Origin: Thermincola carboxydiphila
Lineage (GTDB): Bacteria > Bacillota > Thermincolia > Thermincolales > UBA2595
DNA length: 44,653 bases
Assembly (NCBI GenBank): GCA_016841325.1
Contig: JAENZJ010000026.1
Location: forward strand, 1-44,653
Reading direction: 5' to 3'
The translations under genes and the position numbers were made by a program. Shown here piece after piece: positions 39,866 through 41,785 of this stretch. Position 1 is the stretch's first letter. Every line of letters starts with the position of its first letter. The notes below the pieces were generated by a model, which was not told the origin of the DNA, searched no databases, and saw nothing but the letters and a program-made list of their open reading frames with translations.

Positions 39866-39993
39866 CTTGGCAGATAGGAAAGCATTCCTGTATTGAACAA
39901 AAATGAACTTTGAAAGAGAGAGCACCTCACTGTAGAATTAGGATGTGCTGACTACCACGTAAGCGCAATCCAAAAACACAGGAGGTACTCAAA

Positions 39994-41280
39994 ATGAAGT
40001 ATACCCAGAATGCAAAGATTTTGCAAGTTACAGAAGAAACCTTAATTGTTGGAGTGGACATAGCAAGCGAGACTCACTATGCCCGGGCCTTTGACTACCG
40101 AGGAATGGAACTCGGGAAACTGCTCAAGTTCAGTAATAAAGCTGAAGGTTTCTCTGAATTCGAAGAATGGTTACGCAAAATTGCTAAAAGAACCAGCATG
40201 AAAAAGATCATGGTAGGCATGGAGCCAACCGGTCATTATTGGTTTAATCTTGCCCAGCAAATTAAAGATAAGAGCATGAAAATAGTACTGGTGAATCCGT
40301 TTCATGTCAAAAGGAGCAAGGAATTAGATGACAACAATCCAACCAAGAACGATAGCAAAGATCCTAAAACTATAGCTATGTTAGTCAAAGATGGCCGATA
40401 CATGGAGCCATACATTCCAGAGGGAATATATAGCGAACTAAGGACGGTCATGGAGACCCGTTGGCAAATAGTAAAGCAGTTAAACATAATTCGCAACCGG
40501 ATAAAACGATGGCTAAGCATATACTTTCCGGAGTTTAGCCAAGTGTTTGGTGACTGGGAAGGCAAAGCAGCATTGATTGTATTAAGGGAGTTTCCAACAC
40601 CCGCAAAAATAGTGGCAAAAGGCGTAGATGATATTGTTGGCCGGTGGAAAAAGGACAAGATTAGAGCCGTAGGCATTAAGAGGGCGCAGGACTTGTTAGA
40701 AGTAGCTAAAGTTTCTGTCGGGGTCAGGGACGGTATAAGGAGTGCAGAAAATGCACTGGAAATTCTTCTAGAGAATTATGAAATGTACATGAGACAGTAT
40801 GAAAGAACCATGAGTCTGGTCGAGGAAATAATAAGACAAATAGCAGGCATAGACGAGATGCTCCAGATAAAAGGAGTAGGTTTGGTTACTGCAGCAGGAT
40901 TCATGGCAGAGGTAGGAGATCTGAGCCGTTTCGAACATCCAAGACAGATTCAGAAGTTAGCGGGATTGAGCCTAAAAGAGAATAGTTCCGGTAAGCATAA
41001 AGGCAAGACTAGCATCAGCAAGCGAGGGCGAAGCCGGCTAAGATCACTATTGTTCCTGGCGGCAATGGCTTTAGCAGCAAAGAATCAAGAGTTCAAAGAA
41101 TTACACCAATACTACACAACAAGAACCCAAAATCCGTTAAAGAAAAAGCAATCATTAATCCTGCTAGGTTGTAAATTAATCCGTGTATTCTATGCGCTGA
41201 TAACTAAGGGTTTCAAATATGATCCGAAGAAAATGCTGCAAGATATCAAGAGACCAGTATTACGGGAAGCAGCATTATAA
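39994..41280 (+). CDS. IS110-family transposase (DEDD recombinase)
   Basis: This 428-residue protein has the N-terminal RuvC-like DEDD domain, with VGVDIASETHY (about 19-29; first Asp), VGMEPTGHYW (about 74-83; Glu) and NDSKDPKTIA (about 114-123; Asp pair). The C-terminal Transposase_20 domain has IKGVGLVTAAGFMAEVGDLSRF (about 292-313), KLAGLSLKENSSGKHKGK (serine region of IS110 recombinases) and a basic end. IS110 proteins recombine circular intermediates using a structured bridge RNA. CAGGAGG precedes the ATG. Length is at the upper end for the family; the frame appears intact. Confidence 0.95.
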   Translation: MKYTQNAKILQVTEETLIVGVDIASETHYARAFDYRGMELGKLLKFSNKAEGFSEFEEWLRKIAKRTSMKKIMVGMEPTGHYWFNLAQQIKDKSMKIVLVNPFHVKRSKELDDNNPTKNDSKDPKTIAMLVKDGRYMEPYIPEGIYSELRTVMETRWQIVKQLNIIRNRIKRWLSIYFPEFSQVFGDWEGKAALIVLREFPTPAKIVAKGVDDIVGRWKKDKIRAVGIKRAQDLLEVAKVSVGVRDGIRSAENALEILLENYEMYMRQYERTMSLVEEIIRQIAGIDEMLQIKGVGLVTAAGFMAEVGDLSRFEHPRQIQKLAGLSLKENSSGKHKGKTSISKRGRSRLRSLLFLAAMALAAKNQEFKELHQYYTTRTQNPLKKKQSLILLGCKLIRVFYALITKGFKYDPKKMLQDIKRPVLREAAL

Positions 41281-41600
41281 AATCAAAGGGCCAGGGACCC
41301 AAGTGAAGGTATTCTATACAGTACATTGATAAAACGAGCCGGGAATAGTTAGATCAGATTTATACATTAGGGCGAAGACCCAGTAGGAAAGCATAACTAA
41401 CATCCACCTCATGGATAGGCAGAACGAAGGAATTTAGGGCAAAGACCCTGTGAGACATGGGAGGGTTGCCACCGGAGAGTAAGTGGATTCCATTGGCCGC
41501 AATAAACAGAAAAGATAGAGGCTTATTTAAGGTCACCCCGGCACACCCATATTTATGCATAAATGTTCAGTATATCCAGGCGGCTCGTTTTACATATTAT
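41281..41600 (+). ncRNA. Candidate bridge/seek RNA of the IS110 element
   Basis: The region after the transposase stop holds AGGG-CGAAGA-CCC and AGGG-CAAAGA-CCCT hairpins (about 41369-41381 and 41436-41449), ATCC-ACCTCAT-GGAT (41402-41416) and CCAC...GTGG (41469-41486). An 11-base segment TAAAACGAGCC (41330-41340) is the exact reverse complement of GGCTCGTTTTA at 41582-41592. TAGGAAAGCAT (41384-41394) is identical to 39875-39885 left of the transposase. These are features expected of a guide RNA that pairs with target or donor DNA. Transcription and ends are not shown. Confidence 0.5.
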
Positions 41601-41677
41601 GAAATTATAAGTAAAAAAGAGATATTTAAAGAAATTTAAAGTTTATAGAGGGAGTATAAATGTTATCCTATCTGCAT

Positions 41678-41737
41678 AAAAAAGGCTAAGCTTCGCCGAA
41701 AACAGGCCAAAGGCGCTTAGCGAAGCTAAGCCTTTTT
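41678..41737 (-). terminator. Terminator of the TPR protein gene
   Basis: GGCTAAGCTTCGC (41684-41696) pairs with GCGAAGCTAAGCC (41720-41732), followed on the minus strand by TTTTTT. It is also T-rich on the plus strand. Confidence 0.85.
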
Positions 41738-41785
41738 AATGAAACCGAACAGGTGGAACCTGGTTAATATGACGAATAGATCTGC

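Follow-up and report, generated by a model that had tools for sequence, protein, structure and literature searches.

The insertion sequence and its target site

The 44,653-nucleotide stretch of Thermincola carboxydiphila DNA analysed here (the window) carries a complete insertion sequence of the IS110 family, with a transposase gene flanked by 111 bp of non-coding DNA on its 5′ side and 374 bp on its 3′ side (Table 1). These lengths agree with the original prediction of about 110 and nearly 400 bases. The IS110 element had been placed at 39870–41675, and the extent, unlike the family assignment, needs correction. Aligned relatives share common ends (left AG/CATTCCTGTAA, right ..GGGAG/, the slash marking the junction here and below) and diverge beyond them, which places the element at 39883–41654; the outer 13 and 21 bases of the earlier interval are target-repeat DNA. 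The inverted repeat 39869–39876/41668–41675 was considered as the element ends and rejected, since its arms form a hairpin stem within the target repeat.

Table 1. Coordinates of the element, its predicted RNA and its flanks in the window.
Feature	Position	Strand	Basis
Left target flank TTGGCAGATAGGAAAG, last bases being the core AG	39867–39882	+	Identical letters in uninterrupted repeat copies
Complete insertion sequence, 1,772 bp, counting one AG core copy (41653–41654)	39883–41654	+	Relatives' common ends and empty target-repeat copies
Left end start CATTCCT, right half of donor site	39883–39889	+	Covaries with donor guide 41428–41433
Transposase/recombinase gene, 428 aa, DEDD residues D22, E77, D120, D123 and S332	39994–41280	+	ORF, domain matches, alignment, structure model
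Predicted bridge/seek RNA, ends approximate	41326–41596	+	Covariation and covariance model match
Closing stem, 5′ arm TAAAACGAGCC	41330–41340	+	Pairs with 41582–41592; beats 5,000 permutations
Target-loop stem, 5′ arm GTTAG	41348–41352	+	Double changes in 4 of 5 pairs, 99.2% paired
Right target guide ATTTATAC, complement of GTATAAAT (top strand, right of core)	41358–41365	+	Guide–flank comparison
Target-loop cap hairpin AGGGCGAAGACCC	41369–41381	+	RNAalifold and covariation
Left target guide TAGGAAAG, the top-strand letters left of and through the core	41384–41391	+	Guide–flank comparison
Target-loop stem, 3′ arm CTAAC	41397–41401	+	Covariation
Donor-arm stems, 5′ strands (TCCAC, CTCATGG, GGCA)	41403–41421	+	RNAalifold and covariation
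Right donor guide AGGAAT, complement of left-end ATTCCT	41428–41433	+	Covaries with left end
Donor-loop cap hairpin AGGGCAAAGACCCT	41436–41449	+	Covariation
Left donor guide ATGGGAG, matching right end GGGAG	41457–41463	+	Covaries with right end
Donor-arm stems, 3′ strands (TGCC, CCGGAG, GTGGA)	41467–41487	+	RNAalifold and covariation
Closing stem, 3′ arm GGCTCGTTTTA	41582–41592	+	Permutation test
Right end TTATAGAGGGAG including core AG, left half of donor site	41643–41654	+	Relatives' common ends; covariation with donor guide
Right target flank and remainder of dispersed two-hairpin repeat	41655–41739	+	Repeat copies in genomes G000, G011 and G097

A search of the genome found a single copy of the element, and the repeat that it interrupts is present elsewhere in the same genome in uninterrupted form. 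These copies read TTGGCAGATAGGAAAG TATAAATTTTATCCTATCTGC, and the window reads TTGGCAGATAGGAAAG, element, TATAAATGTTATCCTATCTGC, with the core AG at 39881–39882 and again at 41653–41654. The empty sites thus show insertion at a short shared core and without target duplication, a feature of the IS110 family. Four insertions of relatives in genome G003 likewise have seamless empty counterparts in G417, for example GAGTAAAGGAG/GAGAGTTTGATG. At the corresponding chromosomal place, two sister species contain neither the repeat nor the element.

Dispersed and ∼110 bp long, the target repeat has two hairpins, of which the second closes with a run of T (39867–39882 and 41655–41739 in the window; L168–L179 elsewhere). 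This genome has at least seven copies if the interrupted one is counted, one sister species has six and a second has a single copy. The repeat occurs in these three species of the genus and is absent from six further family genomes, and it resembles a small mobile or terminator-bearing repeat in its own right.

The transposase matches the Pfam families DEDD_Tnp_IS110 and Transposase_20 and the NCBIfam model transpos_IS110, and so has the N-terminal DEDD domain and the C-terminal Transposase_20 domain with its catalytic serine that mark the IS110 family in the broad sense. Residues D22, E77, D120, D123 and S332-G333 are invariant in 23 aligned sequences. An AlphaFold2 model built from the same 23 transposase sequences (mean pLDDT 85.5) has the IS621 recombinase as its best predicted structural match, with a TM score of 0.80 normalised to IS621. 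Relatives with 45–76% identity are common across Clostridia and Bacilli.

The left end (39910–39988) contains a promoter-like pair, TTGAAA (39910–39915) and TAGAAT (39933–39938), with 17 bp spacing. An arm between the two boxes, GCACCTCACTGT (39922–39933), can pair with the ribosome-binding site of the transposase gene, ACACAGGAGGTAC (39976–39988), and the two arms co-vary among relatives, for example CTCCTTGGTAT with ATACCAAGGAG in L021. Such pairing would mask the ribosome-binding site in read-through transcripts from the host and would leave it free in transcripts that the element initiates itself. In L103 and other relatives from Lachnospiraceae, joining of the right end to the left end, as would happen in a circle, would create a consensus sigma-70 promoter, TTGACA-17 bp-TATAAT, that spans the AG core; this arrangement is not clear in the window element.

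Structure and guides of the predicted 3′ RNA

The 3′ DNA had been described as rich in hairpins. Taken by itself the region folds no better than its dinucleotide shuffles (z=0.44, with 66 of 100 shuffles equal or better), so the test of structure was made comparative, and it is the comparison with relatives that reveals the structure. RNAalifold applied to 49 diverse relatives recovered the target-loop stem, the nested donor-arm stems and the target-loop hairpin, with compensatory changes in 14 of 27 pairs. Covariation in the same 49 relatives was assessed on a structure named from one of them, L129. Paired cells amounted to 85.2%, compared with 76.1% in shuffles, and double-sided changes affected 21 of 28 pairs and 136 cells, compared with 13.0 and 43.8 in shuffles; none of 500 shuffles reached these values. 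When the 3′ partners were slid by 1–3 columns as a control, at most 12 pairs and 41 cells remained. For the closing stem (TAAAACGAGCC with GGCTCGTTTTA) the true arms beat all 5,000 permutations, and relatives display alternative forms that include AAAATGAGC with GCTCATTTT and AAAGAGAGCC with GGCTTCTTT, as well as G-U forms such as AAAACGAGCC with GGCTTGTTTT. The aligned 3′ regions of relatives therefore share a conserved secondary structure with strong covariation. The target and donor loops are built alike, each having a 5′ arm, a GGGC..GACCC hairpin and a 3′ arm.

No Rfam family matched the region at gathering or relaxed thresholds. A covariance model of the RNA gave one match in the window genome (41330–41510) and found the RNA in every searched genome with close relatives. 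Where a genome carried only distant IS110 relatives, the model gave no match in five cases of six and a single weak match (E=1.8e-4) in the sixth, G297. Three matches, L183 (G011:C16), L186 (G003:C14) and L187 (G297), lie beside a broken or missing transposase gene and look like decayed or deleted copies. A guide RNA upstream of the gene in relatives would have spoken against the original prediction; in those examined the RNA is 3′ of the transposase gene and not 5′. Several relatives (L005, L008, L009 and L012) have an extra 150–170 bp with long inverted arms (GCACCGC..GCGGTGC, TCAAGGG..CCCTTGA) between the transposase stop codon and the RNA.

On its 3′ side the target loop reads UAGGAAAG, an exact copy of the last eight left-flank bases, core included; on its 5′ side it reads AUUUAUAC, which is complementary to GTATAAAT to the right of the core. 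Together they spell TAGGAAAG plus TATAAAT, the exact site entered by the element. Outside the insertion, the site spelled by both guides, TAGGAAAGTATAAAT, occurs exactly once in the genome, in a repeat copy, and the three genomic sites with one mismatch are all repeat copies as well. In 100 insertions of this clade, agreement between a guide and its own flank averaged 4.48 of 6 positions on the left (2.71 with permuted flanks) and 4.45 of 7 on the right (3.44 with permuted flanks), the latter figure reflecting only partial right-guide matches in many relatives; no permutation out of 10,000 reached either value. The result was unchanged when one insertion was used for each of the 57 distinct guides. 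With Shine-Dalgarno-type guides alone the left signal was again reached by none of 10,000 permutations, and the weaker right signal by one. Since related sequences are not independent, these permutation figures overstate certainty and are to be read as strong indications, not exact probabilities.

The arms of the donor loop covary with the ends of the element. Left ends beginning CATTCCT go with the guide AGGAAT and those with CTTCCT go with AGGAAG, while right ends GGGAG, GAGAG and GATAG are found with guides of the same letters. Comparison of the donor loops also indicates GATAG/ as the likely right end of the distant relatives L069, L070 and L071. The RNA thus appears to have the two loops, one complementary to the target and one to the donor, that are expected of the IS110 family in the broad sense.

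Guides and targets among relatives

The guide in the present lineage would read a dispersed host repeat specific to the genus, and the guides of most relatives would read the Shine-Dalgarno sequence of genes. In most relatives the left guide ends in GGAG and pairing on the right begins with G. The guides of L108 and L109 spell AAAAGGAG/GTGATT, which we take to be a near full complement of the 3′ end of 16S rRNA. For Shine-Dalgarno-type guides, 51 of 66 insertions are followed by a start codon 4–13 bases on and an open frame of at least 40 codons. Among the 15 Bacillus-type insertions, whose guide is GGGGCAG plus CAACTAA and whose target is palindromic, only one was at such a gene-start position, and none of the four with the G124 guide TTTTGTAG was.

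The association with genes could instead reflect survival of those insertions that leave genes working. In the same loci, 98 of 175 AAGGAGG or TAGGAGG sites (56%) precede a start codon and an open reading frame, and against this background the extra enrichment among the insertions is modest. The same background implies that the guide explains most of the gene-start association, and the guide itself spells the motif, whereas insertions with differently spelled guides (GGGGCAG and TTTTGTAG) are not found at gene starts. We therefore consider survival an improbable account of the association as a whole. The motif would be targeted by the guide, and selection may account only for the additional preference for real gene starts. 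Since GGGAG at the right end of the element is followed by the G with which the site resumes, insertion would leave the downstream gene with a ribosome-binding sequence again.

We think it likely that, in a Firmicutes clade of IS110 elements with long transposases, the target loop of a 3′ bridge RNA imitates the anti-Shine-Dalgarno end of 16S rRNA. These elements would insert genome-wide into ribosome-binding sites, with the right end rebuilding the site such that the downstream gene stays translatable, and some branches, including the present element, would have undergone natural reprogramming to repeats of the host or to palindromes. If this is true, targeting of ribosome-binding sites together with repair of the site is a new answer to the problem of spreading through a genome while sparing its genes. 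No description of such targeting with repair was found in the open-access literature searched, the coverage of which was incomplete.

Proposed mechanism and relationship to known systems

We propose, with a probability of roughly 0.93, that this IS110-family element moves by RNA-guided recombination and that the guide RNA comes from its 3′ non-coding region. The fold of this RNA would comprise a closing stem and two internal loops that are homologous. Each loop would pair through its 5′ side with the top strand right of the AG core, and through its 3′ side with the bottom strand left of it. The first loop (RTG AUUUAUAC, LTG UAGGAAAG) would recognise the target TAGGAAAG/TATAAAT, and the second (RDG AGGAAU, LDG GGGAG) the joined ends of the element itself, GGGAG/CATTCCT. 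The DEDD/serine recombinase would exchange strands at the common AG, and the element would be inserted without target duplication. Transcription of the RNA, its assembly into a ribonucleoprotein, a circular intermediate and the strand exchange itself are steps that we infer. A guide RNA in the 3′ region, as originally predicted, is supported by the covarying structure, by the agreement of the guides with both the insertion site and the ends of the element, and by the presence of an uninterrupted target elsewhere in the genome.

Regulatory small RNAs occur in IS elements, ISPpu9 and other IS110 members among them (cited in PMC11208160), and the RNA described here is located immediately 3′ of the transposase gene, where it might regulate transposase expression as an antisense RNA, attenuator or stabiliser, with its matches to target and ends being incidental. 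This is very unlikely, because the loop letters follow the outside DNA of each insertion and both ends of the element, for which a gene regulator would have no reason. It is just as implausible that the conserved region works as DNA in the form of transposase binding sites, as the conserved protein-binding ends of many transposons do, since the compensatory changes and G-U forms of the stems fit single-stranded RNA and the region lies at least 60 bases inward of the right end.

The system that emerges from these comparisons appears to work like the bridge RNA system. IS621 of the IS110 group (PMC11208160, PMC11208158) likewise has a DEDD and serine recombinase, with the same predicted fold, a bispecific RNA with target and donor loops, and a core dinucleotide common to target and donor. 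However, the RNA of IS621 is located in the upstream end and that of the present element in the 3′ end, the order of the loop arms is reversed, the core is AG rather than CT, and the transposase has 428 residues rather than about 326–330. The present element therefore lacks the upstream RNA, with the 5′ loop side on the bottom strand, that defines the narrow, IS621-like IS110 group (PMC11208160). In IS1111 elements the RNA is downstream of the gene and the top-strand match comes first (PMC11187229). Elements of this group with a seekRNA, such as ISEc11 and ISPa11, resemble the present one in their downstream RNA within a long non-coding region, their short upstream end and the placement of the top-strand-pairing segment 5′ of the bottom-strand-pairing segment (PMC11187229).

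Membership of the IS1111 group, to which the original prediction appealed, finds no support in the length of the transposase, which is 330–350 residues in IS1111 elements (PMC11187229) and 428 here, or in the subterminal repeats. Instead of the subterminal inverted repeats of 7–17 bp of that group, the element has no perfect subterminal inverted repeat of at least 7 bp; the best, of 7 bp with one mismatch, is absent in several relatives. The transposase profile scored 61 bits with IS4321 (from R751) and 76 bits with IS621 pieces (from the PDB match), and with IS4321 mainly the C-terminal part aligned, which falls short of full-length relatedness to IS1111. The features tested do not justify filing the element under IS1111. 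As exceptions, and as to location only, PMC11187229 mentions IS110-type elements in which the non-coding region is downstream; they share with the present element an IS110-type transposase and a long 3′ non-coding region, and an overlap with the clade described here is possible. The earlier view of a new system is too strong, in that the element would work like known bridge and seek RNAs, differently arranged. With it, bridge-RNA recombination would extend to a clade of another layout, with a 3′ RNA, reversed arms, a long recombinase and an AG core, in which the many natural guide changes in both loops provide ready test cases.

The two bases that follow the core in the left target guide (41392–41394 in the window, and in relatives) tend to be those with which the left end begins (CA with CA in 40 cases, CT with CT in 19, mixed in 9), as though the target loop might also recognise the element's left junction after insertion. 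In the right flanks of L009, L032, L066 and L078, the last 13–70 bases of the right end are duplicated directly after the element, as if one copy had entered beside the target-like right end of another that was then lost.
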